This document shows, piece by piece, positions 12,301-31,489 of a stretch of DNA of 64,000 nucleotides (the stretch's first letter is position 1; each line of letters starts with the position of its first letter). Location: contig CADCLV010000017.1 in the NCBI GenBank assembly GCA_902802325.1, forward strand, positions 1-64,000, in the 5' to 3' direction. A program made the position numbers and the translations under genes. The notes below the pieces were generated by a model. It made no database searches. It was not told the origin of the DNA and worked only from the letters and a program-made list of their open reading frames with translations. Source of the stretch: Oscillospiraceae bacterium (GTDB lineage: Bacteria > Bacillota > Clostridia > Saccharofermentanales > Saccharofermentanaceae).

Positions 12301-15300
12301 ATCGTATACAACAGCGGTTTCATCAGGTGTATTTGCGACTGCCTCTTCAAACATCTCCACCACGGTCTTTTCCTTCGGATACTCTATGGCGGTACTGTTG
12401 AATTCTGAAAGAATCCGGGCTTTTTCCTCCTCACAGATCACCTGTACCTGATCGATCCGCAAAGAAGGAGTCTCCGTCAGTTCTTCCAGTACAGCGATAT
12501 AGTGCTTGAGAAGATTCTCCGCGCTTTCTTCTCTGAACAAGGCTGTACAGTATTCCAGTCCAATATCAAAATCGTCTTCATGTCCGTTGATGTTGAACGT
12601 AATATCGAATTTGGCGACCGTATCCTCCGATTCGGCATATTCTGTTTCCGCGCCGTTCAACCGGATCTGTTCGGTCTCATTGTTTTGGAGAACGAGCATA
12701 ACATCAAACAGCGGGTTTCTGGACATATCCCTTACAACATGAACTGATTCGACCAGTTCCTCAAATGGATACTCCTGATTCTCGTAGGCTTTCAGACAGG
12801 TGTCCTTGATTTCGGAAAGAAATTCCAGGAATGTCTTTTTTCCCTCCGGTTTGCCACGCAAGGCCAGTGTATTGATAAACATACCCAGCATACCTTCCGT
12901 ATCCTTGTGGGTACGGCCACTGATCGGTGTACCAATCACAATATCCTCCTGACGACTATACTTTCCCAGAAGGATCATCGCGGCAGAAAGCAGTACCATA
13001 AATTCCGTCGTGCCGGTCTTGGCGGCAAGATCACGAATCTTTCTTCCCAAAACCTCGCCGGTACTGTTATATACCATAGAACCACGAAAACTCTGTTCCT
13101 GCGGTCTGACGAAATCCAGAGGCATATCCAATACCGGGATCTCATCATCAAACTGATGTTTCCAATATGCCGCCTGTCCGCTAAGATCACGATTACGCAT
13201 CCATTCACTGTAGTCTTTGAACTGATGGGTCAGCGCAGGGAGTTTCTCGCCATTATACAGTGCATTCAACTCCCGGATAAAAGTACCCACACTCATGCCG
13301 TCACCTACAATGTGATGCATATCAATGTTCAACAGATAGTATCCGCTCCGCTCGATGAGCTGAACCCGGACAAGCGGGAGTTCACTCAAATCAAATGGAC
13401 GGACAAAATCGGAAATCAGCTTAGCTTCATCTGTTTGCGTATCCTGGATATACTCAAAATCCGCATCTGCATGATTCAGGATTTTCTGCACCGGTTCCCC
13501 GTCCACCATGAGGAATTGTGTCCTCAATATCTCATGCCGGTCGATCAGATCCTGCAATGCGCTTCTGAATGCATCCGGATTCACCTCACCATGAAGTATC
13601 AGATGCTCCGGCATGTTATACAAAATGTCATCCGGATTCATCTGGCAGACGAGATATGTTCTTTTCTGGGCGGAAGACATCGGATAGTATTCCTTCTCTT
13701 CTGCATGCGGAATCGATACAAACTCTTCTTCCTTTTTTCCGTTTACGATTTCAGCCAGTTTTTCCGGAGTCGGACTGCTGAAAACAGATTTTAACGGAAT
13801 CCTCTTTCCGGTTTCCGCCTCTATACGGTTTACCAGTCTGGTTGCACGCAAAGAATGGCCGCTAAGAGCAAAGAAACTGTCCTTAACGCTGACTTTCTCT
13901 ACATTCAGGATCTCACTGAAGATGCGGCAGATAATTTCTTCTGTTTCATTACTCGGTGCCACATATTCGCCGCCGGTTTTTGCCTCGATATCCGGCAATG
14001 CACGCTTATCGACTTTTCCGTTTCTGGTCATCGGTATTTTTTCGATCTGCGTCATATAGGACGGCAGCATATAATCCGGAAGCGATTTTGCAAGTTCATC
14101 CCGGATCATCGGAATGCGGACAGCCTCATCACTGACAACATAAGCATAGATCGCCTTTTCTCCGTTGCTGTCATTTCTTGCAATTACCGCACAATCTTTT
14201 ATTTTATCGATTTCCCGGATACGGCTCTCGATTTCACCCAGTTCAATTCGGAAACCACGGATCTTCACCTGTTCATCGATTCGGCCAAGATATTCGATAT
14301 TTCCGTCCGGCAGCCATCTGGCAAGATCACCTGTCCGGTACATTCTTCCTTCACTAAATGGATTCTTTACGAATTTCTCCGCTGTCAGATCCGGTCTGTG
14401 CAAGTATCCTCTTGTGATTCCTGCGCCGCCTGCACAGAGCTCACCCGGCACACCGACTCCACACAGTGTATCACCCTGCAGAATGTATACCTGCACGTTG
14501 TGGATCGGTTTGCCTATCGTGATTCTTTCAGGTTTTTCCCCCTTCTTACATATCCAGTTACTGATACATACCGTTGCCTCAGTCGGGCCATAAGAATTAA
14601 TATATCCGCTGTTCGCCAGAACCGCTTCCACAACAGACATCGGTGCTGCTGACCCGGCAGTCAGGACATATTTATCCAGTACAAATCGTCCCTGTTCATA
14701 ATATTGCGGCGGGAAATAAGATACGTTGATTCCTTTCTCGATAACGTATTTTTTCATGGCATCCAAATCACGAATCGTCTCATCTGTCGGTATATACAGA
14801 GAAGCGCCGTTCATAATCGCGGTCAGCATTTCCCAAACCGATCCATCAAAGATGTAATTCGAAAAAAGCATCGCATGGTCTTCTTCTGTGATACCCAGTT
14901 CTTTTCTCATATAGCAGGCAAGATTGCAGACATTCTTGTGCTCGATCAGCACGCCTTTGGGCTTACCTGTGGTTCCGGAAGTAAAAATACAATACACAAG
15001 ATCATCCGGGGTATTTGTATGTTCCGGATTTTCTACCGGGCACGCAAAACTCTTTTTTTCAGCCAGATCGATCACCGGAATATCTGTACGGATCTTCGTA
15101 TTGTAGGTCAGCACAGCCTTCGGCGCCGCGTCTTCCAGCATATATGCGATTCTGTCTTCCGGATATGTCGGATCCATCGGAACATAGGCTCCGCCTGCTT
15201 TGATGATGCCAAAGATACCTATGATCATTTCCAGACTTCTCTCGGTGAGCATGGAAACAAACTCACCAGGTTTGACACCATACTGTTCCCGGAGAGAATG

Positions 15301-18300
15301 AGCAAGCTGATTCGCTTTTTCGTTTAATTCGCGATAGGTCAGTGTTTCCCCTTCAAAGAAAACGGCAATATTCTCTGGTGTCTTATTTACCTGCTCTTCA
15401 AAGAGGTCTACCAGTGTCTTTTCAGCCGGATATGCGACAGAAGTATTATTAAAGTCAATGAGAACTTGTTTCTCCTCTTCCTTTCCGATCATGGAAATAT
15501 CTTTGATCAGAGAGGATGGGGTTTCCGTCAGATTCATAAGAATGTGAATATAATGATCCAGGATCTTTTCTGCGCTCTCTTTCTTGAACAGCGCTGTACA
15601 GTATTCCAGACCAATGCCGAAATCACCGTCATCTTCATAGATGTCAAAGGACAGATCGATCTTTGAAATGGTGTCGGTAGTATCCGCAACCTGCACTTCC
15701 GTATTGCCCAGACGGATCACTTCATCCTCGTTATTCTGCAGGACAAGTATCACATCAAATATCGGGTTTCTGGACAGATCCCGCTGAACATCTACAGCTT
15801 CAACCAGTTCTTCAAATGGGAACTCCTGATTCTCGTAGGCCTTCAGGCAAGTCTCCTTTACTTCCTGAAGGAAGTCCGTAAACTGTTTTTTCCCTTCAGG
15901 TTTTCCCCTCATTGCCAACGTGTTGACAAACATACCCAGCATGCCTTCGGTATCCTTATGGGTACGCCCGCTGATCGGCGAACCGATCACTACGTCCTCT
16001 TGCCGGCTGTACTTTCCGAGAAGAATCATGGCTGCAGATAAAAGCACCATAAACTCGGTCGATTTCGTCTCAGCCGCCAGTTTCTTGATCTTTTCTCCCA
16101 AAGCTTTCCCGGTATGCACCATAGCCATGGCACCATTGTGGCTCTGCTCCTGTGGTCTCGGGAAATCAAGAGGCATGTTCAATACCGGGATCTCATCCTC
16201 AAACTGACTTTTCCAGTACTTTGCCTGATCACTGAGATCACGGGAACGCATCCATTCACTGTAGTCTTTGAACTGGTGTGTAAGCGGAGGCAATGTTTCT
16301 CCGTTGTACAGTGCATTCAGTTCCTTTGTAAAGGTGACTGCACTCATTCCGTCACCAACAATATGGTGCATATCCAGATTGAGAAGATAGTGATCCCCTC
16401 TGTTTATAAGCTGGACCCGGATCAGCGGCAGCATGCTCAGATCAAAAGGCTTCACAAATCGTGCGGTTAGATCTGCCTCTTTGGATGTTTTATCTTCGAA
16501 ATATTCAAAATCCGCCTCAACATGATCCAGGATCTTCTGCACCGGTTCTCCGTCCATCATGAGGAACTGCGTACGGAGTATTTCATGTCTGTCTATCAGC
16601 TGCTGCAGTGCTTTTTTCAATGCTTCCGGATCAACTTCACCTTTCAGGCGATAAGACTCCGGCATGTTGTACAGAATTCCCTCCGGGTTCATCTGACAGA
16701 TGAGGAATGTTCTTTTCTGGGCAGAAGACATCGGATAGTAATCCTTCTTTTCCGCAGCCGGAATGGATTCAAATTCAGCGGCCTCTTCGCCGTTAACATA
16801 TTCAGACAGCATTTCCGGTGTCGGACTGCTGAAGATCGTTTTCAACGGTATTCTCTTCCCTAATTCAGACTCGATCCGATTGACCAGTCTGGTAGCACGA
16901 AGAGAGTGTCCGCCAAGAGCAAAGAAACTATCCTTGACGCTAACTCTTTTTACATTCAGTATTTCGCTGAATATAGCACAAATGATTTCTTCAGTACTAT
17001 TTCTCGGAGCAACATACTCATCCCCGGTCCGGGCTTCAATATCCGGAAGAGACCGCTTATCCAGTTTTCCGTTTCTGGTTACCGGAATACTCTCAATCTG
17101 CATCATATACGCAGGGATCATGTAATCCGGAAGATTTTTGCCCAGCTCATTTCTTACCTTGGAAAGAGACAATTCCTCATCGCTGACAAGGTAGGCGTAG
17201 ATTGCCTTTTCTCCGGATCGATCAGATCTTGCAATGACCGCGCAGTTTTTCACATTCCGGATCTGGAGAAGTCTGCTTTCCACCTCTCCCAATTCCACCC
17301 GGAATCCACGGATCTTCACCTGTTCATCGATTCTTCCGAGATACTCCACATTGCCATCCGGAAGCCATCTTGCCAGGTCACCGGTATGGTACATCCGGCC
17401 ATCTCCAAATGGATTTTTAACAAACTTCTCATTCGTCAGTTCCGGCCGGTTCAGATATCCCCTGGAAACACCGGCACCGGCAATACAAAGCTCACCGGGA
17501 ACACCGATTCCGCACAACACATCTCCATTCAGGATCATTACCTGACTGTTCGCGATCGGTTTTCCAATCGGAATGGTTTCATTCTCATCAGAATAATCCA
17601 CCTTATAGTATGTCGCACATACTGTCGTCTCTGTCGGACCATATGTGTTGTATATGCTTATATCCGTATCCAGGAGATCCTTGAAATATTCCTTCTTCAG
17701 CACATCTCCGCCGCTGATGAGTATTCTCATCTGCGTTTCCTTCAGATAATCCATTTCCTTTATCAGAAGCGGTGAACAGCTTATGATGTTGATTCTCTCA
17801 TTTATGATCGTTGTTTTCAGTTTCACCGGATCCAGCAAATGATCTTTGTTTACAATGACCATCTTTCCGCCGCAGATCAATACCGGATACAGTTCCTCTA
17901 CAGAGGTATCAAAGCCGATATACGCCTGCTGCAGGATAACAGACTGTTCCGTTATCCCGTAATACCGGACAAACTGGCGGACATATGCTGCCAGATTCCG
18001 CTGCTCAATCAGTACGCCTTTGGATTCTCCTGTCGTACCTGATGTGTAGATACAATACGCCAGATCCTTCCCTGTATTCACATGTGGCAGATTCTCCGTG
18101 TCACCGGTATATATCCGGCTATCAGAAAGGTCGATCACGGATATATCCGTGTTTAATGATGCCTGGTATGTCAGCACCGCCTTAGGCGTGGAATCTTTCA
18201 GAATATACGCGATTCTATCCTCCGGATATGACGGATCAATCGGAAGATACGCAGCGCCGGATTTAAGAATGCCGTAGATGCCGATAATCATTTCCAGGCC

Positions 18301-19953
18301 TCTTTCGGCCACAATTGCCACCATATCATCCGGCTTCACGTCTAAATCTCTCAATTTCCGGGCCAATTGGTTCGCACGGGCATTCAGTTCCGCATAGGTC
18401 AGTGATGTATCTTCATACACAAGCGCAATGTTTTCAGGCGTTTTTTCGACCTGACGCTCGAACAGATCTATAACGGTTGTTTCCTCTGATTGTGGAAGAA
18501 CTGCATTGTTAAACTCCGTCAGGATCTTCTGTCTTTCTTCCTCGCCAACTACCTCGATGCTCTCGATCCTGGCTTCCGGATTTGCTGTCAGCTTATCCAG
18601 AATAAGCAGGTAATGAGCCAGGATCTTCTCAATGGTCTGCTTTTCATAGATAGTCCGGTTATACTCTACAAATCCACAAAGAGAAATATCATCATCATGA
18701 ATCTGGAAGTTCACATCGGTCAGTACAACAAAGTCTCCCAGACCGAATGCTTCCACTTCACAACCTTCTAGAGAAAGCTCCATTCTCTTTCTGGGATTAT
18801 AGTTAAATCCGACTTCGGAAAAAGGTGTCCGGCTCAGGTCACGGGGCGGATTTACAGCAGCCACCAGCGTTTCCAGCGGAACATCCTTCTTTCCGTATGC
18901 CTGATATGTTTTTTCCTTCGCCGCCTCCACAGCATCGTCAAAAGTCATCTGCGGATGGATTTCCGTCACGATGATCAGATTATTAATAAAGCAGCCCAGA
19001 AGGTTTTCAAGCTGTTCATTATCTCTGTCTGCGACAGTGATCTCAACGGCGATATTCTCATTCCGTGTGTAAAGGTTCAGCAGGCAATTCAACGCTGAAA
19101 ACAGAACCACATTTACCGTAACGTGCCGGGATGCAGCATATTGTCTGATCTTCTCGTCAATGCTCTTCGGAACATCAAAGTAGATCATTCCTCCCTCACT
19201 GCTTCGCACAGCCGGGCGCATGTGATCCGTCGGGAACTCCGTCGGTTCGATTCCTTCCAGTTCTTCTTTCCAGTATTCGATTTGGGAACGGATTTCTTCT
19301 GAACCCATCTTTGATAAAACAAATTCAGCATAATCACCATAACTGACAGCAGGTTTTTCCAAGTCAGATTTCCGATTATGCAGTGCCGCAGTATATTCCT
19401 CCGACAATTCCTTACAAAAGAGGTTTTCTGAAGTTCCATCGTACACAATATGATGTCCTGAAAGAACAAAATACGCGATGTCCTCTTCAGTCTGATACAA
19501 GGCAAAACGGACCAGCGGACCTTTTTCTAAATCAATGGGTTCAGATACGAATCTTTTTCCTTCTTCAGCCACAAGATCGTCATTGTATCCTTTTCCGCGA
19601 AGATCAAAATATCTGAAGTCAAGTTTCCCTTCTGGAAGCACTTCCTGGAATACTTCTTCTCCTTCACGGCACAGGACTGTCCGCCAGATCTCATGTCGAT
19701 GGATGATCTGCTCCAAGCTCTTTTTCATCGCTTCCAGATCTACATGTCCCTTGATTTTGCAGGCAAACGGAATGTTATATACAACACTGTCCGGATCGAT
19801 CAGGCAGTCCATCCAAATGCCCCGCTGTACCATGGAAAGCGGGAATTTTGTTTTATGTGATGCTATGATCCGGTCTGAATCCTCCGGTTCACTTTTCTGT
19901 TTCTTTTTCGAAAGCATCTTCAAAAGAAGCTGTCTTTTTTCATCGTTATTCAT
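9391..19953 (-). CDS. Three-module NRPS, C-A-T-C-A-T-C-A-T-C*
   Basis: At 3520 residues, this is the main assembly line. Motif positions: C1 HHIVYDG ~168, A1 TSGTTGESKGV ~639, T1 LGGHS ~1014; C2 HHIVGDG ~1198, A2 TSGTTGKPKGV ~1661, T2 LSGHS ~2032; C3 HHIVGDG ~2215, A3 ~2676, T3 LGGNS ~3060. A divergent, short condensation-like domain (~3190-3520) has NHALWDR at ~3277. No epimerase, methyltransferase, TE or reductase domain is visible. Pocket residues suggest a basic residue (Lys-like) for A1 (DTESIGTVCK) and an aromatic one for A2 (DGWYLASVCK); A3 (about DITQMGVVWK) is unassigned. I chose the ATG at 19953 because it follows GGAAAG and begins with an NRPS-type linker helix (NDEKRQLLLKMLSKKKQK); the upstream in-frame extension overlaps the previous gene. 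Modules 2 and 3 have near-identical C domains. Confidence 0.95.
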   Translation of the reverse strand: MNNDEKRQLLLKMLSKKKQKSEPEDSDRIIASHKTKFPLSMVQRGIWMDCLIDPDSVVYNIPFACKIKGHVDLEAMKKSLEQIIHRHEIWRTVLCREGEEVFQEVLPEGKLDFRYFDLRGKGYNDDLVAEEGKRFVSEPIDLEKGPLVRFALYQTEEDIAYFVLSGHHIVYDGTSENLFCKELSEEYTAALHNRKSDLEKPAVSYGDYAEFVLSKMGSEEIRSQIEYWKEELEGIEPTEFPTDHMRPAVRSSEGGMIYFDVPKSIDEKIRQYAASRHVTVNVVLFSALNCLLNLYTRNENIAVEITVADRDNEQLENLLGCFINNLIIVTEIHPQMTFDDAVEAAKEKTYQAYGKKDVPLETLVAAVNPPRDLSRTPFSEVGFNYNPRKRMELSLEGCEVEAFGLGDFVVLTDVNFQIHDDDISLCGFVEYNRTIYEKQTIEKILAHYLLILDKLTANPEARIESIEVVGEEERQKILTEFNNAVLPQSEETTVIDLFERQVEKTPENIALVYEDTSLTYAELNARANQLARKLRDLDVKPDDMVAIVAERGLEMIIGIYGILKSGAAYLPIDPSYPEDRIAYILKDSTPKAVLTYQASLNTDISVIDLSDSRIYTGDTENLPHVNTGKDLAYCIYTSGTTGESKGVLIEQRNLAAYVRQFVRYYGITEQSVILQQAYIGFDTSVEELYPVLICGGKMVIVNKDHLLDPVKLKTTIINERINIISCSPLLIKEMDYLKETQMRILISGGDVLKKEYFKDLLDTDISIYNTYGPTETTVCATYYKVDYSDENETIPIGKPIANSQVMILNGDVLCGIGVPGELCIAGAGVSRGYLNRPELTNEKFVKNPFGDGRMYHTGDLARWLPDGNVEYLGRIDEQVKIRGFRVELGEVESRLLQIRNVKNCAVIARSDRSGEKAIYAYLVSDEELSLSKVRNELGKNLPDYMIPAYMMQIESIPVTRNGKLDKRSLPDIEARTGDEYVAPRNSTEEIICAIFSEILNVKRVSVKDSFFALGGHSLRATRLVNRIESELGKRIPLKTIFSSPTPEMLSEYVNGEEAAEFESIPAAEKKDYYPMSSAQKRTFLICQMNPEGILYNMPESYRLKGEVDPEALKKALQQLIDRHEILRTQFLMMDGEPVQKILDHVEADFEYFEDKTSKEADLTARFVKPFDLSMLPLIRVQLINRGDHYLLNLDMHHIVGDGMSAVTFTKELNALYNGETLPPLTHQFKDYSEWMRSRDLSDQAKYWKSQFEDEIPVLNMPLDFPRPQEQSHNGAMAMVHTGKALGEKIKKLAAETKSTEFMVLLSAAMILLGKYSRQEDVVIGSPISGRTHKDTEGMLGMFVNTLAMRGKPEGKKQFTDFLQEVKETCLKAYENQEFPFEELVEAVDVQRDLSRNPIFDVILVLQNNEDEVIRLGNTEVQVADTTDTISKIDLSFDIYEDDGDFGIGLEYCTALFKKESAEKILDHYIHILMNLTETPSSLIKDISMIGKEEEKQVLIDFNNTSVAYPAEKTLVDLFEEQVNKTPENIAVFFEGETLTYRELNEKANQLAHSLREQYGVKPGEFVSMLTERSLEMIIGIFGIIKAGGAYVPMDPTYPEDRIAYMLEDAAPKAVLTYNTKIRTDIPVIDLAEKKSFACPVENPEHTNTPDDLVYCIFTSGTTGKPKGVLIEHKNVCNLACYMRKELGITEEDHAMLFSNYIFDGSVWEMLTAIMNGASLYIPTDETIRDLDAMKKYVIEKGINVSYFPPQYYEQGRFVLDKYVLTAGSAAPMSVVEAVLANSGYINSYGPTEATVCISNWICKKGEKPERITIGKPIHNVQVYILQGDTLCGVGVPGELCAGGAGITRGYLHRPDLTAEKFVKNPFSEGRMYRTGDLARWLPDGNIEYLGRIDEQVKIRGFRIELGEIESRIREIDKIKDCAVIARNDSNGEKAIYAYVVSDEAVRIPMIRDELAKSLPDYMLPSYMTQIEKIPMTRNGKVDKRALPDIEAKTGGEYVAPSNETEEIICRIFSEILNVEKVSVKDSFFALSGHSLRATRLVNRIEAETGKRIPLKSVFSSPTPEKLAEIVNGKKEEEFVSIPHAEEKEYYPMSSAQKRTYLVCQMNPDDILYNMPEHLILHGEVNPDAFRSALQDLIDRHEILRTQFLMVDGEPVQKILNHADADFEYIQDTQTDEAKLISDFVRPFDLSELPLVRVQLIERSGYYLLNIDMHHIVGDGMSVGTFIRELNALYNGEKLPALTHQFKDYSEWMRNRDLSGQAAYWKHQFDDEIPVLDMPLDFVRPQEQSFRGSMVYNSTGEVLGRKIRDLAAKTGTTEFMVLLSAAMILLGKYSRQEDIVIGTPISGRTHKDTEGMLGMFINTLALRGKPEGKKTFLEFLSEIKDTCLKAYENQEYPFEELVESVHVVRDMSRNPLFDVMLVLQNNETEQIRLNGAETEYAESEDTVAKFDITFNINGHEDDFDIGLEYCTALFREESAENLLKHYIAVLEELTETPSLRIDQVQVICEEEKARILSEFNSTAIEYPKEKTVVEMFEEAVANTPDETAVVYDGQSLTYAELNEKANQLADRLRKLGVKPNDFVAVFTERSLEMIIAIYGVMKAGGAYLPMDPAYPKDRIEYMLEDASPKAVLTYKTSLDTDIIRIDLADPELYSGTSSNPEHVTCPEDLLYCIYTSGTTGKPKGVMIKNQNVVNYSFVSDKSTMTYAYKNGLRRFVSVTNLVFDIFVTEAILTLCNGMTIYVATSEEQSDLAAFEKLVVENGIEILQTTPSRIKGFFAQDPETKVFAGMRYIMLGGEAVGMEVVSRLKAASDAVIENVYGPSETTVWSSCFQIEGEYASIPIGKPISNTQIYIVDKDHLCGIGVPGELCIAGDGLARGYLNRPELTGEKFAPNSFGTGRLYHTGDLARWLPDGNVEYLGRIDEQVKVRGFRIELGEIDSRLREIEGIKDCAVIVREESSGDKAIYAYFVSQDEMDISLIRSELGKNLPDYMIPSYMMRIEKIPVNRNGKLDKRALPIIEASTGKEYIAPRNEAERTMASVFEEILDVEKVGIQDDFFELGGNSLKAIRVSAKLKLFNIPVSTKDLHTYRTISQLAHVLGMDAEEEISSSVNADKSAIKISMFEPPVIEGKKVHNEGVIEAIAEYKNNLKGKSIVSSYKPNNMQKYYLHLSTDESSIIGVCFHISGAAVSQIQKALTDMVRDQSALRSCYSDEQEKITEYSFGEWKIPYLSASQAVSRESVATCLFAHEVRSGIDILPVILITESGTGSFDVYIAANHALWDRSSCDVAADLLETYLNQSGNTKPDDLTYSDYIQCRNTAEKSVHSKEDSGTILSSIELYKARSAGTYENKSFSVTLKKDENVTYDVRWLMSKFSEISDTKDLSSIPFFMLYHCRDDRSMNTIGYYIDYIPCVYDKKRQEICFYDEAIDKLKEGSAEYHFLGDEYASGICDDVPVVNLKESIDMMSEEMNQIEIYNLGSQSAQEGIECCLDGDKVYVGMGFHMHGVSDEEFYRRIQKAFSIT

Positions 19954-19993
19954 CTGTCTTTCCTTTTCTCTTGTTCCTTTTTCCGAAGTCAGT

Positions 19994-21931
19994 TTACATG
20001 TTGTATCTGGCAAAGGCCTCCTGATAGGCAGCTGCATTGCCCAGATCGAAAGATTTCCCGTCCACCAGGAATCCAATCAGATCCTTTTCTTTAATTGCTT
20101 TTCGAAATGCTTCTGTAAGATCGATTTCGCCTTTTTCATTTGTGTGATTATTTCTCACCGCATCGCCCAGGTAACTAAAGATTTTCTCATTCAGAACATA
20201 GGCGCCAAATGCCGCACAGCAAACATTCTCTTCCTTCTTTCGGGAGAGCATCAAATACTCTTTTGCATAATCGGGTGTTGGTTTTTCAACTACTTCAGAA
20301 CAGTTCAGAATACGTTCTTCCTTATCATCCCAGTGGCCGGAGAATACACCAAAAGAAGACACATTTTTCACGCCTACCGTCTGCAATGCCACGATGGATT
20401 TCCCGTATATATCATATGTGTCCACGATCTGCTTTAAGCACGGAGTAGAAGTGTTGCTCCGGTACAAAGTATCCCCCAGAAGGAGCAGTACCGGTTCCTT
20501 ATTTGTAAAAGAAGCAGCCTGATATACAGCATGCCCGAATCCTTTCGGCTCGTACTGCTTTACAAAGGAGATCTTCTTCGTGATTCGAGTCATCTTATCT
20601 TCATATGCGCGCATTTTCTCCGGAAGCTTTTCATAATGCTTTCTCGACAATGGACGCAAAAGCAGCTGTCTGTACATTTCTTCGTCATCCGGATTAATGA
20701 TCAGGCAGATCTCCTCTATCCCGATCGCATCCAGCTGCTCAAGTAATACCAGGAGGATCGGCTTGACCAAACCATCAAGATCTACGATCGGGCACATTTC
20801 CTTTTTCGTAAATCTCGTTTCGGGATATAACCGTGTTCCGAATCCGGCAACAGGTATAATCGCTTTGTTGATCGCTCTTTGCGGTTTCAATGTTAACGGA
20901 TAGGCAGAAAGACCCAGCGAATGGCTCATGTAATCGATCAGATCGTCCTGGCATTTCTTGTCTTTTGCCAGAAACTGCACTGTTCCATCTCCCTGTGAAC
21001 CGACGCCTTTTCCACCATAGGTAAGTTGTTTGATCGTAGTGTTATTGAGTACGGAATGGAGTACCGGTGCTTTTAATTCTTCCGGGCACATCGGCGCCAC
21101 TTTCGCATCAAAGATCTCCTGTGCTTCTGTCATTAAGTGGCCCAAACCTTGTGCGTCACCGTTTTTAATCAGTTTTCTGGCCTCTGTCGTAATGCGGATA
21201 TTGTCCTCGCCCAGTGCCTCATGGAGAGTTTTCTCCTTCTCATTTCGGGCAAATGGATATCCGCTGTTCAGATCGGCCAGGATCTTGATCGTATCTTTTT
21301 TTGCCATCAGATCGGCAAAAACGTAGTACAGTGGTTTTTTAACAGGAATCTGATCCACATGCATCTCGTTTCCATCAAAAGTCATCGAAACCGGGTGTGG
21401 TCCGAAGGCACAGGCCTGATCGACTCTTCCACATCGGGAAGGCGTTCTCTGTTCACCCCAGTACGCAATATTCATGATTCCACGGGTATTCAGATTCAGA
21501 TTGTACAACTGATTAAATGCCTGTGCGACAAGCACACAAATTGCTGCCGAAGAAGACAATCCCTTCTTCACCGGCAGGTCTCTTTTTGTAATTTCAATAG
21601 AAACGCCGCCTACGTTATACCATTCGCACATATAGGATGCGACGCCGGCAACATAGCTGAAATATCCTCCCTGATGCGCAGTTTCACTGAGAGAGTCCAG
21701 ATCCATCGGGCATTCAAAGGAGCCGTCTTTCAGTTCCTTGATCTTACTGGTTACTGAAAACATGTCTGATCTTTTTGCACGGGCATATATACCCTGCTGT
21801 GTACCTGTTACAATCGCACATCCAGGTGTGATTTCAGAATTAACTGTTCTACTTGTCCCTGCCCAGTCACTATGCTCACCAAACAGACACAGGCGTCCCG
21901 GCACAAACAAATCAATCGTTTCGTTATCCAT
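19994..21931 (-). CDS. Bifunctional GHMP sugar kinase / NDP-sugar pyrophosphorylase
   Basis: The 645-residue protein fuses two enzymes. Residues ~1-345 are a GHMP kinase: PGRLCLFGEHSDWAG matches the sugar-kinase N-terminal motif and PVKKGLSSSAA the phosphate-binding loop; GGKGVGSQGDG is motif 3. Residues ~350-645 are a GalU/RmlA-type nucleotidylyltransferase: IIPVAGFGTRLYPETRFTKK is the G-x-G-T-R-x(n)-K signature, followed by LLLLGDTLY and later VVEKP. The pair would phosphorylate a free sugar at C1 and activate it as an NDP-sugar, much as Fkp does for fucose but with the domains in the opposite order. In this cluster it most likely supplies donor for the two glycosyltransferases. Sugar and nucleotide cannot be read. 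A strong AAAGGAGG precedes the start. Confidence 0.85.
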   Translation of the reverse strand: MDNETIDLFVPGRLCLFGEHSDWAGTSRTVNSEITPGCAIVTGTQQGIYARAKRSDMFSVTSKIKELKDGSFECPMDLDSLSETAHQGGYFSYVAGVASYMCEWYNVGGVSIEITKRDLPVKKGLSSSAAICVLVAQAFNQLYNLNLNTRGIMNIAYWGEQRTPSRCGRVDQACAFGPHPVSMTFDGNEMHVDQIPVKKPLYYVFADLMAKKDTIKILADLNSGYPFARNEKEKTLHEALGEDNIRITTEARKLIKNGDAQGLGHLMTEAQEIFDAKVAPMCPEELKAPVLHSVLNNTTIKQLTYGGKGVGSQGDGTVQFLAKDKKCQDDLIDYMSHSLGLSAYPLTLKPQRAINKAIIPVAGFGTRLYPETRFTKKEMCPIVDLDGLVKPILLVLLEQLDAIGIEEICLIINPDDEEMYRQLLLRPLSRKHYEKLPEKMRAYEDKMTRITKKISFVKQYEPKGFGHAVYQAASFTNKEPVLLLLGDTLYRSNTSTPCLKQIVDTYDIYGKSIVALQTVGVKNVSSFGVFSGHWDDKEERILNCSEVVEKPTPDYAKEYLMLSRKKEENVCCAAFGAYVLNEKIFSYLGDAVRNNHTNEKGEIDLTEAFRKAIKEKDLIGFLVDGKSFDLGNAAAYQEAFARYNM

Positions 21932-21980
21932 ACATCATTCCTCCTTTGAAACAATGGAAAGAAATAGAAGTGTATCGTTC

Positions 21981-22724
21981 TTATTTGATCAAATCATCGA
22001 AACGGGCAAACTTGATTCCCATATCCACAAAAGCCTTTATGATCGGTCCAAACATCTCATTTGTCTGCGGATGATCATGGATGACTATGAGATCTGCCGA
22101 ACCGGGATAGTTAAGCCCCATCCATCTGTCCGGAAGATCCAGCTCCATCATTTCCAGCACATCATCTAATGTACGGACTCCATATGGCGGATTCTCCTGA
22201 TATACACACCACTCCATGGCATCATATGTCCAAAGCCAGTCCACACGCCCGGATTTCCGGAATGCATCAAAATACGGGTAGGTGATTTCCTGAAATGACG
22301 GGAGCACATATCCGTTTTCTTTTAAAAAGGACTGTATGCTCTCGACCCGTTCTTTTTCCTCTTGCGAATAGTCCAGATCATAAAAACCACGGGTGACCCC
22401 TTCATTTCCATATGGAAAACGGAAAAACTTGGCCGGTCTCTTTACTCCCGCTTCTTCATAGATCCGTTCTATCATCTGATCATTCAGCAGGATCTCTTCT
22501 TTTGCCTGTTCCAAAGTCAGCTCAGAGAAGTTCGGGTGGGAACATGCATGATTACCGATAATGTGGCCACTTTGAATGGTATAAAGAACATCATCTTTTC
22601 TGATATCCATAAATCGCTTCTCGCAAAACCAAACCGCCTGAATACCATACTGATTTAATATGTCCACTTTTTCACGGCGGGCCACAGAAGGGCCATCGTC
22701 AACTGTCAGGTACGCTTTTTTCAT
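21981..22724 (-). CDS. Polysaccharide deacetylase-like (NodB-type) enzyme
   Basis: This 247-residue protein shows the NodB/CE4 motifs: YLTVDDGPS (catalytic base and metal Asp pair), GNHACSHPNFSEL (metal-binding HxxxHP), FFRFPYGNEG (the RxPYG motif) and LIVIHDHPQT near the C-terminus. CE4 enzymes remove N- or O-acetyl groups from sugars such as GlcNAc. It has no signal peptide, so it works in the cytoplasm, which suits deacetylation of a sugar on the peptide or of its precursor, not cell-wall editing. I placed the start at 22724 (MKKAYLTVDDG) by family convention; an ATG lies 18 bases upstream. It sits between the glycosyltransferase and the sugar-activating enzyme. Confidence 0.85.
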   Translation of the reverse strand: MKKAYLTVDDGPSVARREKVDILNQYGIQAVWFCEKRFMDIRKDDVLYTIQSGHIIGNHACSHPNFSELTLEQAKEEILLNDQMIERIYEEAGVKRPAKFFRFPYGNEGVTRGFYDLDYSQEEKERVESIQSFLKENGYVLPSFQEITYPYFDAFRKSGRVDWLWTYDAMEWCVYQENPPYGVRTLDDVLEMMELDLPDRWMGLNYPGSADLIVIHDHPQTNEMFGPIIKAFVDMGIKFARFDDLIK

Positions 22725-22763
22725 ATATACCTCCATGTTCACTTATACTGATTTTCTTTGTAT

Positions 22764-24137
22764 TTACTTGTTTTCTCTTTTTTTGAGACTCAATCGCAGC
22801 CGTGCTCTCTGCTCATCGGTGAGTTTCTGTATACGCTCACCGGGCGCTTTTTTCTCACTGGATTCCGAAGTATTTATTTGCTTTGCTTCCGTTCCCTGCT
22901 TCCTGTTAATGGAATACACGTAGTCATCATTACCTATCATCTGCTCAACACGATCAGCTGCTACCGAGATACCACGGTTTTCCGCCATCTTCTCAACACA
23001 TATCCGGTATTTTTCCGAGCCGCGATTTGCCATAAGAGAACGGATCATGTCAGCGACTTTCTCCGGCTGCCAGTTTCCTGGAAGCAGATAGTCACCCACA
23101 CCCTGTTCCTTGATCAGTGTTGCATTATACGGTCTGTCTCCATATCCTGGCAGAATCAGTTGCGGTATACCGATCGCCATTCCTCCCGTAACCGTTCCGA
23201 TTCCGCCGTGATGAATCAGAACACTTAGTTTCGGCATGATTTCATCAAGTGGGATATATTTGTACCAAACCACATTCGAGGGCAGTTCTTTTGGAATAAA
23301 CTCATCATACTTGCAAAGAACAACAGTCGGCTGGCCAATGATTCCACACGCCTCTATGCTGCTGGTATAGAAGCTGGCGTCGATCATGGTCGTAGTGCCT
23401 CCGGTAATCAGGATCGGATTCGGATTCTTCTCCAACCAATTTGCAAAGTCTTCCGGAATCTCTCTTTGATAAGCCGCTTTTCCCTGCTCAAGCGGAAAAC
23501 CGACCGGATCAATTTTCGTCGGCCACTGATCATCCACATGATCAAACCAGTCCGGCCATAGGGCCAGCGTCATTTTTGCACTGCCTTCCCACTGCAGCCA
23601 AGAATCTATCGGATCCAGACCAACTGCCTTGCGAAGTTCATTTAAACGAGGAACATCATTCTTTCCTTCGAGATCTTCAAACAGCAGCATACTGGCTACT
23701 TCCGACGGATAACCGATCACAGTGGCCAAAGGAAGCTTTCTCTTCTCCGCCACCATATACGCAGCTACACTGGAACGGCTCTTGCAAAGAAGAACTGTAT
23801 CCGGGCTTTGACAGCAGGAGTCGACGATTTTATATTCTTTCAGTCTTAACTGAATGTTTTCTGTACTTTGCCTGAACTCATTTGATGAATATGAAAAATT
23901 ACTGCTTTGGAAAGCATGATCATCTTTATTCCGATACATCAGATCCACCAATGCATCGTACTCTTCCGGAGTATCCCACGGAACAAAGTCCAGCCCGGCC
24001 TTCTCAGCCATACCGGCAAAGTGACAGTGCGTAACCAGCGTTACGTGATGACCTCGTCTTTTCAGTTCTGTACCAATCCGGACATAGGGAATCACATCCC
24101 CATCCAGCCAATGGGTGACAACAACAACATTCGCCAT
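22764..24137 (-). CDS. GT1/MGT-like glycosyltransferase with linker and docking-like tail
   Basis: This 457-residue enzyme is related to the glycosyltransferase at 6179-7501. It starts MANVVVVTHWLDGDVIPYVR and has VLIHHGGIGTVTGGMAIGIP, the GT1/MGT donor-binding signature. After the catalytic domain there is a polar low-complexity linker (about KQGTEAKQINTSESSEKKAP) and a final basic helix, LTDEQRARLRLSLKKRENK. That helix looks like the linker motif found in front of NRPS condensation domains. I chose the start at 24137 because the protein then aligns with its relative; the upstream 43 in-frame codons have no homologous look. The ribosome binding site is weak (CAGGT). First gene of the second transcription unit. 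Confidence 0.87.
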   Translation of the reverse strand: MANVVVVTHWLDGDVIPYVRIGTELKRRGHHVTLVTHCHFAGMAEKAGLDFVPWDTPEEYDALVDLMYRNKDDHAFQSSNFSYSSNEFRQSTENIQLRLKEYKIVDSCCQSPDTVLLCKSRSSVAAYMVAEKRKLPLATVIGYPSEVASMLLFEDLEGKNDVPRLNELRKAVGLDPIDSWLQWEGSAKMTLALWPDWFDHVDDQWPTKIDPVGFPLEQGKAAYQREIPEDFANWLEKNPNPILITGGTTTMIDASFYTSSIEACGIIGQPTVVLCKYDEFIPKELPSNVVWYKYIPLDEIMPKLSVLIHHGGIGTVTGGMAIGIPQLILPGYGDRPYNATLIKEQGVGDYLLPGNWQPEKVADMIRSLMANRGSEKYRICVEKMAENRGISVAADRVEQMIGNDDYVYSINRKQGTEAKQINTSESSEKKAPGERIQKLTDEQRARLRLSLKKRENK

Positions 24138-24432
24138 ACCAACTACCTGATCTATGGCTCCATTGCTTTTTGTCGGTTCTATGCACCCCCATTTTTTCTG
24201 CACAGCCCGCTTTAATTTCGCACTTTGCTCAGCAAACAAAACCCAACCCACTGGGCCGCCGCGCAAAAAGTGTCATTATATAGAAAAAGAGACTACAGCA
24301 AAAAAAGTCGACAAAAAAACTACTTTTTTACCAAAAAATCATTAATCCTTTCTTCGTTTTCCTTCCTGCCTAATTATATCACACCAGACGGTCTTTCAAT
24401 TCTTTCAAAAGTGAAACATTGTGACATTTCCA
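24138..24432 (-). other. Intergenic region with likely internal promoters
   Basis: This is the largest gap inside the NRPS cluster and is AT-rich with A/T runs around 24297-24350. Read on the minus strand it has two TATAAT hexamers (24373-24378 and 24275-24280). I see no gene here: the longer glycosyltransferase frame that enters it lacks a ribosome binding site. Confidence 0.5.
24373..24399 (-). promoter_or_regulatory. Possible promoter of the glycosyltransferase-NRPS unit
   Basis: Minus-strand TTGAAA (24394-24399) and TATAAT (24373-24378) are separated by 15 bases, shorter than ideal. A second TATAAT at 24275-24280 with a poor -35 (TTTTGC, 17-base spacer) is an alternative nearer the gene. 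Confidence 0.4.
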
Positions 24433-26373
24433 TCACTCCAATTCAAAAGCACCCGTGTACAGCTGGTAGTATTTTCCTTTTTCAGCCACGAGTGAAGTGT
24501 GGTCTCCCTGCTCGATAATACGGCCATTTTCCAGCACCATGATCATCTCACTGTTTTTTACGGTGGAAAGCCTATGTGCAATAACAAATACCGTGCGGTT
24601 CTCCATCAGAGCATCCATTCCACGCTGCACGATCGCTTCTGTACGTGTATCGATCGAACTGGTTGCTTCATCGAGGATCATGACAGGCGGATCAGCCACA
24701 GCGGCACGGGCGATCGAGATCAGCTGGCGCTGGCCTTGAGACAGTTCCGAACCGTTCGCCGTCAGCAAAGTATCATACCCTTGTGGAAGCTTACTGATGA
24801 AATCATGTGCATTGGCCAGTTTGGCAGCAGCGATACATTCTTCCTCCGTCGCCGAAAGATTTCCGTAGCGGATATTTTCCATGACAGTTCCCGTGAAAAG
24901 CTGAGTGTCCTGAAGTACCACGCCAAGCGAGCGGCGCAGGTCCGACTTTTTTATCTTATTAATGTTGATATCATCGTAGCGGATCTTTCCATCTGCTATG
25001 TCATAGAAACGGTTGATCAGATTTGTGATCGTCGTTTTTCCGGCACCGGTTGCACCGACGAAAGCAATCTTCTGCCCCGGCATGGCATGTAAAGTGATAT
25101 CGTGAAGCACGGTCTTTTTTCCGTCATAACTAAAATCCACGTCTGTGAAACAAACTTCGCCACGCACAAGCGAGTACGTCATCGTTCCATCCCCATGCGG
25201 ATGTTTCCAAGCCCAAACATAATCATCATTAGAGTTATGGACAAGCGGCGTCTCCTTCGAAACCTCTATCAGTTTTTCCCCATCTTTCCGGCAACGCACT
25301 AGCGTAACATATCCTTCATCCGGCTCGGATTCTTCATCTAGAAATCGAAAGATTCTTTCCGCTCCGGCCATCGCCATATTAATGGCATTCATCTGCCCTG
25401 ACATCATTGATACAGGTTCTACGAAGGCTCGTGTCAGCTGCAGGAAGGACGCAATCACTCCGACAGTAATGACGCTCAAGTGACAACGAATCGCCAGAAA
25501 TCCGCCGATGAACGCAACAAGTACATATAGAACTTTTCCTATACTGTCTGTCAACGGCATCATAATATTGGCAAAGGTGTTCGCCTTTGTGGAATTCAGA
25601 CAGAGTTCATCATTCTTTTGGTCGAATCTCTGTATAGCACGCTTCTCGTATGTAAAAACTTTAATGACTTTCTGACCATTGGCCATTTCTTCAATATAGC
25701 CATTCACATTTCCAAGTGAATCCTGCTGTTTCATGAAGTACTTAGCGCTTTTTCCTCCAATCTTTCCGATTAAGAAAAACATCGCTGCCGTACCAATGAT
25801 GACGGGGATCGTTAACTGCCAGCACAGGAAAAGCATACCAATCAGATTGGCAGCAAAAGAGATACAAGAAGAGAGTGTGGTAGGCACACCCTGGGAAATC
25901 ATCTCTTTTAGTGCATCTACATCATTTGTGTAATGACTCATTACATCCCCGTGAGCATGAGTGTCAAAAAACGAAAGCGGAAAGGTCTGCATGTGGCGGA
26001 ACATTTCATCACGTACATTCCGTAATACATTGTTAGCAATCACCATCATGATCTGTGCCGAAAAGAACTCCACCAGCACAGCAAACCCATACAACAGCCC
26101 GAGTTTTCCGATCCATGTTGCCAGTCCGGAGAAATCCACCGCGTTTATTCCTGATGTTTCCGCCGTTTTCAAAAACGGCATCACGTAGTCATCGAGCAAG
26201 TCTTTTATAAACACATTACTCAAAACAGCAACAATAGAGGCGAGAATTATACAAACGACGACCAGACACAGTAGAAATTTATATTTCCCGGTCAGATAAG
26301 AAAGCAAGCGCTTGATATTCTTCATAGAAAGCGGGCTCTCCTGCTCCAATGTTTTCTCATCGATGGAAGACAT
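24433..26373 (-). CDS. ABC exporter, TMD-NBD half with canonical ATPase site
   Basis: The 646-residue half-transporter has six membrane segments in the first ~330 residues and a C-terminal nucleotide-binding domain: Walker A GATGAGKTT, signature LSQGQ, Walker B VMILDEATSSID with the catalytic Glu, and the switch His in VIAHRLSTV. A roughly 45-residue insert (about 355-400, containing DDYVWAWKHPHGDG) lies between the two domains. It pairs with the downstream-read half (26373-28158), whose Walker B ends in Asp, making a heterodimeric exporter with one consensus site. It overlaps that gene by one base. Expected role: export of, and self-protection from, the NRPS product. Confidence 0.9.
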   Translation of the reverse strand: MSSIDEKTLEQESPLSMKNIKRLLSYLTGKYKFLLCLVVVCIILASIVAVLSNVFIKDLLDDYVMPFLKTAETSGINAVDFSGLATWIGKLGLLYGFAVLVEFFSAQIMMVIANNVLRNVRDEMFRHMQTFPLSFFDTHAHGDVMSHYTNDVDALKEMISQGVPTTLSSCISFAANLIGMLFLCWQLTIPVIIGTAAMFFLIGKIGGKSAKYFMKQQDSLGNVNGYIEEMANGQKVIKVFTYEKRAIQRFDQKNDELCLNSTKANTFANIMMPLTDSIGKVLYVLVAFIGGFLAIRCHLSVITVGVIASFLQLTRAFVEPVSMMSGQMNAINMAMAGAERIFRFLDEESEPDEGYVTLVRCRKDGEKLIEVSKETPLVHNSNDDYVWAWKHPHGDGTMTYSLVRGEVCFTDVDFSYDGKKTVLHDITLHAMPGQKIAFVGATGAGKTTITNLINRFYDIADGKIRYDDININKIKKSDLRRSLGVVLQDTQLFTGTVMENIRYGNLSATEEECIAAAKLANAHDFISKLPQGYDTLLTANGSELSQGQRQLISIARAAVADPPVMILDEATSSIDTRTEAIVQRGMDALMENRTVFVIAHRLSTVKNSEMIMVLENGRIIEQGDHTSLVAEKGKYYQLYTGAFELE

Positions 26374-28158
26374 TATTCCTCGCCTCCCCTCTTCTGAGAT
26401 TCATATACTTCCCGATATATATCATTGCCGGCCAATAGCTCCTGGTGGGTGCCAATACCACTGATCCTGCCTTTGTCGATCACTATGATTCGATCTGCAT
26501 TCTCTACGGAAGATATACGCTGGGCAATGATCAGCTTTGTCATTCCCGGAACCAGTTCAGTAAAACCTTTCTGAATCTGAGCATCTGTTTTCGTATCTAC
26601 CGCACTGGTCGAATCATCCAGAATGAGGATCTTCGGCTTTTTCAAAATGGCCCTGGCTATACATAGCCTCTGCTTTTGTCCGCCGGAAACATTGGTTCCA
26701 TCCTGTTCAATATACGTATCATACCCCTCCGGAAATGATCGGATGAAAGAGTCCGCCTGAGCAATTTCACATGCCTGTCTCATCTCCTCGTCCGTTGCTT
26801 CCGCATTTCCCCAACAAAGATTCTCCCGGATCGTACCTGAGAAAAGAACATTTTTCTGAAGTACCATAGTTACATTGTCACGGATAACATTCAAATCATA
26901 ATTTCGCACATCGACTCCGCCAACTTTGATCCTTCCGGATGTGACATCATAAAGTCGCGGGATCAGCTGTACCAGAGAAGATTTTCCGCTTCCGGTCCCG
27001 CCAATGATTCCCACTGTTTCTCCGGAACGGATATGCAGATCAATATCTATCAAGCAGCACTTCTCTTTGTCCTTAGAATAACTGAAAGATACATTCTCAA
27101 AATCAATAGAACCATCTTTCACTTCCTGGATCGGAGCCTCCGGATTGCGGATATCCGGTTCCTCTTCCAGTATTTCAGCAATACGAGCTGCCGACGCACG
27201 GGAAATGACAAGCATAACAATAATCATCGATACCATCATCAAACTCAGCAGTATCTGCATGGTGTAGGTGAACATAATCGTCAGCTGTCCGGTTGTCATC
27301 TTTTTATTTACGACCAGTTTTGCACCGATCCAGGAAATCAGAAGCATCGCTGTATAGATGCTGGACATCATAATCGGACCATTGAAATTCAGCGCTCTCT
27401 CAGCTTTTACAGAGTCGTTTCGGATACTGTTGGATACAGACGTGAATTTCTCGGTTTCATGTTCTTCCCGCACATATGATTTGACGATACGGATCCCTCG
27501 TACATTTTCCTGAACAACATTATTCATCCGGTCGATTTTAGTAAACATGCGGGTAAAAACCGGCTGAGCATAACGAAAAATAAGATACAAGCCAATCAGC
27601 ATCAGTGGTGCAATACCCAGGAATATCAGTGCCAGTCTGGTATTGATCGTAAAAATCGCCGTCATGGCAAATATCAGCATGATCGGCGCTTTTACCGCAA
27701 TCAGAATAATCGTCTGATACGCATTTTGTACATTCATCACATCTGTCGTCAGTCTTGTGATGATACTAGAAGTTTTGAACTTATCTATATTAGAAAACGA
27801 GAATTTCTGCAGCTGGCAAAACATATCGTGTCTAAGATTTCGGGCAAATCCGGAACTGGCCTTGGCAGCAAAACTTCCGGATAAAGCACCGAATGCCAGA
27901 TATGCCAGCATACACACCAGAATCAGAGTCCCCATCCACCATACGTAGTCCATGTTGGATTTTTCAACACCTTCATCGATTCAGAGTCCCCATCCACCAT
28001 ACGTAGTCCATGTTGGATTTTTCAACACCTTCATCGATCAGTTTTCCCATAAGGAACGGCATAATTACCTCCATGGCAACCGCCAGGGAAACCAGAACCG
28101 GTGAGAGAATAGATGGTTTTTTATACTCTCTGACTGAAAGCAGGAGCCTCTTGATCAT
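26373..28158 (-). pseudogene. ABC exporter half disrupted by a 58-bp tandem duplication
   Basis: The gene should encode a 575-residue half-transporter: an N-terminus MIKRLLLSVREYKKPSILSP, six membrane segments, Walker A GGTGSGKSS, signature VSGGQKQ and Walker B ILILDDSTSAVD (Asp in place of catalytic Glu, usual for the degenerate site of heterodimeric exporters). A perfect 58-bp repeat (27923-27980 and 27981-28038) shifts the frame and produces a TGA right after ...DYVWWMGTLNR (residue 61). Deleting one copy restores an unbroken frame (1728 bases). The downstream piece could only start at an internal ATG (27953) with no ribosome binding site and would lack the first membrane segment. It overlaps the thioesterase gene by four bases at its start. 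True inactivation, a reversible state and an assembly artefact all remain possible. Confidence 0.85.
27923..28038. repeat. Perfect 58-bp tandem duplication inside the exporter gene
   Basis: Bases 27923-27980 are repeated exactly at 27981-28038. The length is not a multiple of three (58 = 19 x 3 + 1), so it frameshifts the ABC exporter gene. A short TCAG occurs at both borders of the single-copy sequence, but the junction has one extra T, so simple slippage on TCAG does not fully account for it. Confidence 0.97.
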
Positions 28159-28868
28159 TTCTTCTTCTCACCTTCTTTCAAGTACTTACGAAGGTAAGAA
28201 ACGAACTCGGTATGGTTATTAAATGCAAAGAAATGATTGCCTCTGAAAACTTGAAGAGAAAAATCCTGTTCAGTATACTTTTGCCATTCCTGCATGTCCT
28301 CCTGGGGAGTTTCTTCGTCCTCCTCACCGAAAAGTGCCAAAAGAGGTACGTGGATCTTCCTTTCTTCATAGGAACGCGTATACCGGGTAAACATCTGCAC
28401 ATCGGCATATAAGATATCGGCAATCATTTCCATCAGTTCTTCGCATTCAAGGATCTCCGGTTCAAACTGTCCTCGGGAAACGATAGTTTGTAAAAGTTCT
28501 TCTTTGGATAACTCTCGAAGATTGATGCCTTTATTGCGCATATGTGGCGGCCGGCTTGCGGCAACAATGACTGCTTTGGGAAGTATGTCTGTTATCTTTT
28601 CCAAAACAAAAGCAGTCTCCAGCGCAATCAAAGCACCCATGCTATGACCGTAAATTACATAATCAGAAGGGTTTTTCCGAAGAATCGTTTCAGAGATCTC
28701 CTCTGCCGCTGCTTCAATACTGGAATAATAGGGATCGCAGAAGCGGCTCGCGTGTCCGGGATACTCGATGGGACAAACTTCGATTTCCGGTTTCAATTCT
28801 GAAATCCAGTCTCGATATATACTTGCACTGCCTCCTGCATAAGGCAATGCAAACATCTGCATGCTCAT
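28155..28868 (-). CDS. Type II thioesterase of the NRPS cluster
   Basis: This 237-residue alpha/beta hydrolase begins MQMFALPYAGGSASIYRDW, the typical start of external (type II) thioesterases. It carries the nucleophile elbow YGHSMGALIA (Ser), a Asp in LFGEEDEETP and the late His in RGNHFFAF. Such enzymes clear misprimed or stalled acyl groups from carrier domains; since neither NRPS has its own TE domain, this one may also take part in release. It is the first gene of the cluster and overlaps the next by four bases. No Shine-Dalgarno lies at normal distance from ATG 28868; an AAAGGAG sits upstream of a hairpin (28880-28904). Confidence 0.9.
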   Translation of the reverse strand: MSMQMFALPYAGGSASIYRDWISELKPEIEVCPIEYPGHASRFCDPYYSSIEAAAEEISETILRKNPSDYVIYGHSMGALIALETAFVLEKITDILPKAVIVAASRPPHMRNKGINLRELSKEELLQTIVSRGQFEPEILECEELMEMIADILYADVQMFTRYTRSYEERKIHVPLLALFGEEDEETPQEDMQEWQKYTEQDFSLQVFRGNHFFAFNNHTEFVSYLRKYLKEGEKKK

Positions 28869-28879
28869 ATTTTATCTAA

Positions 28880-28904
28880 AGTATAAGGATCCCCACCTTA
28901 TACT
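28880..28904 (-). promoter_or_regulatory. Hairpin between Shine-Dalgarno and thioesterase start
   Basis: On the minus strand AGTATAAGG and CCTTATACT form a perfect 9-bp stem with a 7-base loop. AAAGG lies just before it and the thioesterase ATG 11 bases after it. Folding would bring the ribosome binding site near the start codon. There is no T-run, so it is not a terminator. Confidence 0.5.
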
Positions 28905-28978
28905 CCTTTCGCATTATTTCCCCACACCTATTGTATTCTATCACAAAAATATCCGGTAAAAGAAATCGTCGCATCTTC

Positions 28979-31489
28979 TTATTCGATACTCTTCAGCGAC
29001 TCGGTCATGTCGATCCGGCGGATCTTGCCGCGCATCATGAAGTCCACGGCCATGGAAAAGAGGATGACCAGAAGGAGCGAGTAAACATAGCTCATGGGCA
29101 GGATCAGGACCTTGTAGGCCACGATATCCATCTTGATCTGGGAGATCACGAAGCGGTGCAGGGCGATGCCTGTCGGGATCCCTACGATAAAGCCCAGAAG
29201 GCAGAGGATAAAGTTCTCGCGGAACACATAGCTTCCGGTTTCGCCTTTTCGGAAACCCAGAACTTTGAGAGTCGCGATCTCCCGGGTCCTTTCGGCGATG
29301 TTGATGTTATTCAGGTTAAACAGCACGATAAAGGCCAGAAGAGCTGCACAGGTAATGACCAGTATCACGATATAATTCATCTTCTCCATGGTATTGGAGA
29401 AGTTCTTTCTTCCTTCTTCCATAATGTTCCAGGACTGGATATGCTCCTCCGATCCGATGGCGGAACCGAACTCGTAGGAAGTTCCTTCCGGCACGCGGAC
29501 CAGTGCGCTGTTCGGTACATATTCTTCGGCAAAAGCACTTTCGTAGGTGCTTTTGTCCATGATGGCGTAGTGGAATGTGTAATTCTCGAAAATGTAGCCG
29601 ATGGGGCAGGTTATGGTCTTTCCCTCTTCTCCGTATTCCAGAGTGATGGTATCGCCCACTTCAAGGCCGTTGCTTTCGGCAAGCTTAATGCTGATTCCGA
29701 TTTTTCCCGATTCAGGAAGCGCATATTCTTCTTTTCCGTTATGGGGACGCACATACTGAATGAATGCCGGATCGTCTGCCACGAACAAAGACACATCCCG
29801 GATGGCGCTTTTACTTGTGTGCTTCAGCTGCTCGGTACGGATCAGGATGGATTCGGCCTTTATACCGGTCTTCTCTTCAGCCTTTTGAAGAAGATCCCTC
29901 ATCTCCTCTTTTGTTGCTTTTCCATCGAAATTCACTGCCACATCGTAGGTCATGATCTCATCGTACTGGAAGTTGATGAGATTATTGATGGAGTCCTTCA
30001 GCCCGAATCCGGTGATCAGAAGCGCCGTGCATCCCGCAATGCCGATGATCATCATCCACATTCTCTTTTTGAAGCGGAAAACATTCCGGGCCGATACCTT
30101 GTGGAGGAAGGACAGTCTCTTCCAAAGAGGCGTAATGTACTCGAGAAAGATGCGTTTTCCCGAGGGCGGGGCTTTCGGCCGGACCAGTTCTGCCGGAGTA
30201 TCGGTAAACTCCGAAAAACACGTCACGATGGTCACGCCGACGGAGCAGAGAAGGGACACGAGAAGGGAGATCAGAAACAGCGGGATCTCCACTGTAAACG
30301 TGATGGGCGCAAACCCGTACATCACGTCATAGACCTTCCAGATCACGAAGGGGAATATCTTCGTTCCGGCGGCAAACCCGCCTACGGCGCCGATAAGAGA
30401 GGCCGATCCGGAGTAGATGATATACTTGAGCATGATGGAAAACTTCGAATACCCCACGGCCCGCATGGTGCCGATCACCGACCGTTCATCGCTGACCATG
30501 CGCTGCATGGTGGTAGAGCAGACGAGGGCGGCCAGCGCAAAGAAAAAGATCGGAAATACCGAGGCGATGCCGTCTACGATCTTGGCATCATTTTCGAAAC
30601 TGACATAGCCCACATTGGTGTCGCGCTTCAGGATAAAGAATTCCGCTGACGCCGGAAATCCCATGGATTCCGGATCTACAGGAAATGCACTTTCGTCGCC
30701 GGTGATCCCGTATTGGGAAAGGACCTCTTTCTTGAGCCGTTCATAGCGGGCATCCACCACCTCTTTCACGCAGGGCGAAAGTGCTTTTTCCTGAAGTTTT
30801 ACATCCTCTTCGTATTCTTCGGTAAATGCATCTTTGTCGGTGCGGATCCGTACATAGGTTTCAGAATATGAAGTGAAATCCAGTCCTTCTTCGGGAACAT
30901 ATACGAAGAAATCCAAAGATCCGTCCCCCATCTCGGTGGTGCCTTTTTGAAAGTTCAAGTAATACGGCGAGCGGACCCGGCCGACTACTTCGTATTCTTT
31001 GAAAGAAAAACCGTCACCTTCTGAAAGCAGAAGCGTATCCCCCACATAATCAGAGGCGCAGGCATAGGCATCGACCACCACTTCATCCGGCTTTTCCGGA
31101 AGCCGCCCCTCGATCAGATCCAGTTTATTGATATCCTTCGTCATTGTATGGAAACGGACGACGGAAACGAGATCTTCTTTTCCTTCTTTTCCCTTTTTCC
31201 GGGTCACGATGCCGTCCGAAAAGAATGCACCTTCACAGGAAATCACCTCCGGAAGAGTCCGGATCTTTTCGATATCCTCCTCATCGAAACCAATGGTGGA
31301 GAGAATGCGGAAATCAAAGAGGGCCTGTTTCCGGATATAGTCGGTACCGGTCTTCATAAAAGCCGGTTTGGTGCTTTTTAAGCCGGAAAAGAAACCGACG
31401 CCCAAAGCGATGATCGCCAGGATCGCCAGATATCGCATCAGACTTCCCTTGATGGTGCGCAAAACGATCTTCCAGTAACTGCTCTTCAT
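28979..31489 (-). CDS. FtsX/MacB-type ABC transporter permease
   Basis: The 836-residue permease has one N-terminal membrane segment (LMRYLAILAIIALGVGFFSGLK), a large extracytoplasmic domain, three membrane segments in the middle (around FPIFFFALAALVCSTTMQRM), a second extracytoplasmic domain, and three final segments (IVILVITCAALLAFIVLFNL onward). This double-FtsX layout is common in Bacillota peptide or lipoprotein exporters and sensors. ALVCSTTMQRMVSDERSVIGTMRAVGYS and NINIAERTREIATLKVLGFR are the coupling segments that touch the ATPase. It follows its ATPase gene by seven bases. Substrate unknown; not part of the NRPS cluster by position, although the thioesterase begins 110 bases later in the same direction. 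Confidence 0.85.
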   Translation of the reverse strand: MKSSYWKIVLRTIKGSLMRYLAILAIIALGVGFFSGLKSTKPAFMKTGTDYIRKQALFDFRILSTIGFDEEDIEKIRTLPEVISCEGAFFSDGIVTRKKGKEGKEDLVSVVRFHTMTKDINKLDLIEGRLPEKPDEVVVDAYACASDYVGDTLLLSEGDGFSFKEYEVVGRVRSPYYLNFQKGTTEMGDGSLDFFVYVPEEGLDFTSYSETYVRIRTDKDAFTEEYEEDVKLQEKALSPCVKEVVDARYERLKKEVLSQYGITGDESAFPVDPESMGFPASAEFFILKRDTNVGYVSFENDAKIVDGIASVFPIFFFALAALVCSTTMQRMVSDERSVIGTMRAVGYSKFSIMLKYIIYSGSASLIGAVGGFAAGTKIFPFVIWKVYDVMYGFAPITFTVEIPLFLISLLVSLLCSVGVTIVTCFSEFTDTPAELVRPKAPPSGKRIFLEYITPLWKRLSFLHKVSARNVFRFKKRMWMMIIGIAGCTALLITGFGLKDSINNLINFQYDEIMTYDVAVNFDGKATKEEMRDLLQKAEEKTGIKAESILIRTEQLKHTSKSAIRDVSLFVADDPAFIQYVRPHNGKEEYALPESGKIGISIKLAESNGLEVGDTITLEYGEEGKTITCPIGYIFENYTFHYAIMDKSTYESAFAEEYVPNSALVRVPEGTSYEFGSAIGSEEHIQSWNIMEEGRKNFSNTMEKMNYIVILVITCAALLAFIVLFNLNNINIAERTREIATLKVLGFRKGETGSYVFRENFILCLLGFIVGIPTGIALHRFVISQIKMDIVAYKVLILPMSYVYSLLLVILFSMAVDFMMRGKIRRIDMTESLKSIE

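Follow-up and report, generated by a model that had tools for sequence, protein, structure and literature searches.

A perfect 58-bp tandem repeat that splits an ABC exporter gene in a clostridial draft genome is most probably an uncollapsed contig overlap

The gene for one half of an ABC exporter is interrupted, in the draft assembly of an Oscillospiraceae bacterium, by a perfect tandem duplication of 58 bp. Here we ask whether the organism itself carries this duplication or whether the repeat arose when the contigs of the draft were put together. The window, the whole stretch of 64,000 nucleotides that was analysed, is part of contig 17 (C17; other contigs are designated in the same way). 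An earlier note reported that bases 27923-27980 recur exactly at 27981-28038. This was confirmed in the window sequence, where 58 of 58 bases are identical and the match does not extend by a single base on either side. The repeat is the sole exact tandem found in the window in a scan of periods of 10-999 bases, and its origin by chance is excluded. The coordinates of the repeat, of the exporter genes and of similar tandems elsewhere in the draft are given in Table 1.

Table 1. Positions of the repeat, the exporter genes and other exact two-copy tandems of the draft. Window coordinates are given for the first four rows and locus coordinates for the others.
Feature	Location	Strand	Remarks
Repeat copy 1	27923..27980		Exact match to 27981-28038; taken as the right end of the left-hand contig
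Repeat copy 2	27981..28038		Exact match to copy 1; taken as the left end of the right-hand contig; cutting at this point gives a piece of 37,591 bp, in keeping with the rank of contig 17
ABC exporter half, membrane and ATPase domains	26373..28158	minus	In the assembly, two frames of 61 and 526 aa; in the sister genome, a single open frame
Partner ABC exporter half, 646 aa, intact	24433..26373	minus	PF00664 and PF00005
Exact 58-bp tandem	L163 (G000:C38) 5616-5731		Interrupts a GH3 glycosidase gene; relatives have a single copy
Exact 50-bp tandem	L220 (G000:C70) 14126-14226		Splits glycyl-tRNA synthetase before the anticodon-binding domain; contig also has a 51-base N gap
Exact 48-bp tandem	L091 (G000:C15) 356-453		
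Exact 35-bp two-copy tandem	L183 686-757		
Exact 30-bp two-copy tandem	L084 9746-9806		
Exact 26-bp two-copy tandem	L205 5073-5124		
Exact 22-bp two-copy tandem	L171 372-417		

In the assembly sequence the 58-bp insertion does put a stop at codon 62 of the exporter half, and when the repeat is counted once the gene is uninterrupted, with 575 codons and a stop, both as the earlier note had stated. The interrupted frame (28158-27973, minus strand) encodes 61 amino acids, and a second frame of 526 amino acids (27953-26373) starts from an internal ATG at 27953, within the repeat. Profile matches to PF00664 and PF00005 are present in both exporter genes. As in a heterodimeric ABC exporter, two half-transporters, each with membrane and ATPase domains, lie next to each other, but one of them is split in the assembly and forms one frame in the sister genome described below. 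If the duplication were real, the gene could still be functional as a shorter protein restarting at the ATG within the repeat, which does open the 526-residue frame. Such a product, however, would be devoid of about 49 N-terminal residues found in the homologues, and its membrane-domain match starts only at profile position 45. The probability of a functional restart is close to negligible.

The exporter genes are neighboured by those of a thioesterase, a glycosyltransferase, a polysaccharide-deacetylase-like protein, a GHMP-kinase/nucleotidyltransferase fusion and a 3561-aa NRPS, and "the cluster's exporter", as the gene had been called, is therefore fair wording. The NRPS product is presumably the cargo of the exporter pair. 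The NRPS (9391-20076) contains three adenylation domains and scores above the NCBIfam cut-off for the aureusimine synthetase AusA, though it is much longer than that model. The fusion protein, a single frame of 645 aa (19994-21931) within the cluster, combines a GHMP kinase domain and a sugar nucleotidyltransferase domain. A paralogous exporter pair is intact on C9 (L131, G000:C9:19801-39800, positions 9735-13273) and is 77% and 71% identical to the window pair. This paralogous version is carried by most of the same-genus genomes searched, at about 70-74% DNA identity. If the duplication in the window were real, the intact pair on C9 might compensate.

The draft is 95.6% complete and comprises 145 contigs with a total of 2.71 Mb. 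The scan took in contigs 1-86, about 2.45 Mb of this total. Runs of 58, 2, 11, 7, 60 and 51 N are present in C3, C20, C30, C41, C48 and C70, respectively, and mark the draft as scaffolded. Each of 13 pairs of contig ends has exactly 99 bases in common, a hallmark of de Bruijn graph assembly with k near 100; in assemblies made with IDBA-UD and metaSPAdes, perfect end overlaps have been linked to the largest k (PMC7111523). A k-mer overlap fixed at 58 (k = 59) was considered as the origin of the repeat and dropped, because 99 bp are shared between contig ends and the lengths of the other repeats are 48 and 50 bp; all of these repeats are better explained by overlaps below the graph limit.

The contigs are numbered in order of decreasing length, and 33 of the 86 are out of order. 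Such contigs appear to have retained their number in the ranking when a partner was attached. C17, with 65,571 bp, is one of them, its neighbours C16 and C18 being 37,727 and 37,086 bp long. The right piece obtained by cutting C17 at the repeat falls inside the slot between them, as would about 2% of random cuts. Exact two-copy tandems of at least 20 bp were found in six out-of-order contigs, and a cut at the tandem gives a fitting piece in three of the six, a result reached by random cuts in 0.3% of trials. C70, too, fits its slot if the N gap is treated as a join.

This signature is not confined to C17. Contigs 1-86 contain three more exact two-copy tandems of at least 48 bp with almost no extra match, in C38, C70 and C15. 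Glycyl-tRNA synthetase is indispensable to a cell. The whole-genome search found neither a second glycyl-tRNA synthetase above the family cut-off nor glyQ, and it is possible but unlikely that a second gene was missed in a draft of this completeness. The repeat in C70, which splits the one copy detected, is therefore very probably an artefact, and the repeat in the window has the same form. The tandems of 48, 35, 30, 26 and 22 bp may be join artefacts as well.

These observations bear on the reading that a real, recent 58-bp duplication became fixed in the strain and inactivated one half of the exporter of the NRPS cluster. The repeat is indeed exact and would frameshift the gene, and its single copy in relatives is what a private recent event predicts. 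However, it sits where a cut restores the length rank of C17, and a repeat of the same kind disrupts the glycyl-tRNA synthetase of the draft, the only one detectable, a loss that no living cell could tolerate. Nor does slippage account for its length: microhomology between two nearby ATCAG motifs near the repeat ends was tried as an origin and rejected, as it would produce an in-frame duplication of 57 bp, not 58. A real duplication is accordingly regarded as very improbable.

Of the relatives found, the MAG RUG13936 (G016; L003, L048) is the nearest; it is syntenic with the window from 16389 to 29813, across the proposed join, with 93-98% nucleotide identity in the main blocks by blastn. In RUG13936 the 58 bases are present once and a single exporter frame is open through the site, and the exporters of the window and the sister are 96% identical in amino acid sequence. 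In the 526-aa part dN is 0.018 and dS 0.339; the resulting dN/dS of about 0.05 is the pattern expected of a gene under purifying selection. The sister stretches matching the tandems of C38, C70 and C15 are each one copy shorter and, with the window site, single copy was found at four of four. The other homologous loci covering the region, a set in which several contigs are represented twice, are all open through the repeat site. No second copy or length variant was found at this site among the homologous loci of relatives, and only loci cut from the contig of the window itself show the doubled junction.

The comparison with relatives also weighs on the proposal of a reversible on/off switch, in which the copy number of the 58-bp unit would toggle export of the non-ribosomal peptide in this uncultured Clostridia species. 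Short tandem copies can in principle collapse and, as in a phase-variable tandem-repeat locus, the number of copies (one or two) would set the frame. The repeat in the window differs from such loci in having just two copies, in one draft only, at an assembly seam; copy-number variants among relatives, which mark phase-variable loci, are absent from the homologous loci. A switch is extremely improbable.

The 58-bp tandem is best explained, with a probability of about 95%, as a scaffolding artefact, an uncollapsed contig overlap. Two neighbouring contigs, one ending near 27980 and the other starting near 27981, would truly have overlapped by 58 bp. As this overlap is shorter than the 99-bp overlap of the graph, the assembly graph would have left the two contigs unmerged, and a later joining step would have abutted them and kept the overlap twice. 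We infer the joining step, the identity of the assembler and a single-copy result in the reads. The repeat has the form expected of such an overlap, an exact two-copy tandem below the graph limit; the location of the join is indicated, indirectly, by the rank of C17, and the signature recurs in C38, C70 and C15. A comparable local assembly error was described by Chen et al. 2020 (PMC7111523): scaffold joins of IDBA-UD and CLC with overlapping flanks retain duplicate sequence, the copies being separated by Ns, and the duplicate has to be deleted. Both cases have contig-end sequence kept twice at a join of a short-read draft. Counting against the artefact, the copies in the window abut directly, with no Ns between them, unlike those of Chen et al.; the pieces cut from C38 and C8 would fit their length slots only with a further, seamless join; and overlapping flanks were looked for at the six N gaps and none was found.

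Of the three options left by the earlier note, true loss, a reversible switch and an assembly fault, the last is strongly favoured by the rank of C17, the recurrence of the signature and the single copy in the sister, and the other two are not upheld. The exact identity of the copies, taken before as a sign of a very recent event, is read here as a consequence of the same stretch lying at the ends of two overlapping contigs. The suggestion that the exporter is frameshifted and that the strain may not export its peptide is likewise not supported: in the organism the exporter half is most likely one intact frame, like that of the sister. The repeat itself carries little biological weight and is an ordinary artefact that serves as a caution. 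At several likely joins of this draft an exact short tandem gives rise to a false pseudogene, in one case of an essential gene. Before a frameshift or gene loss is called in a scaffolded short-read draft, the sequence should be checked for exact repeats that abut and are shorter than the graph overlap of the assembly.
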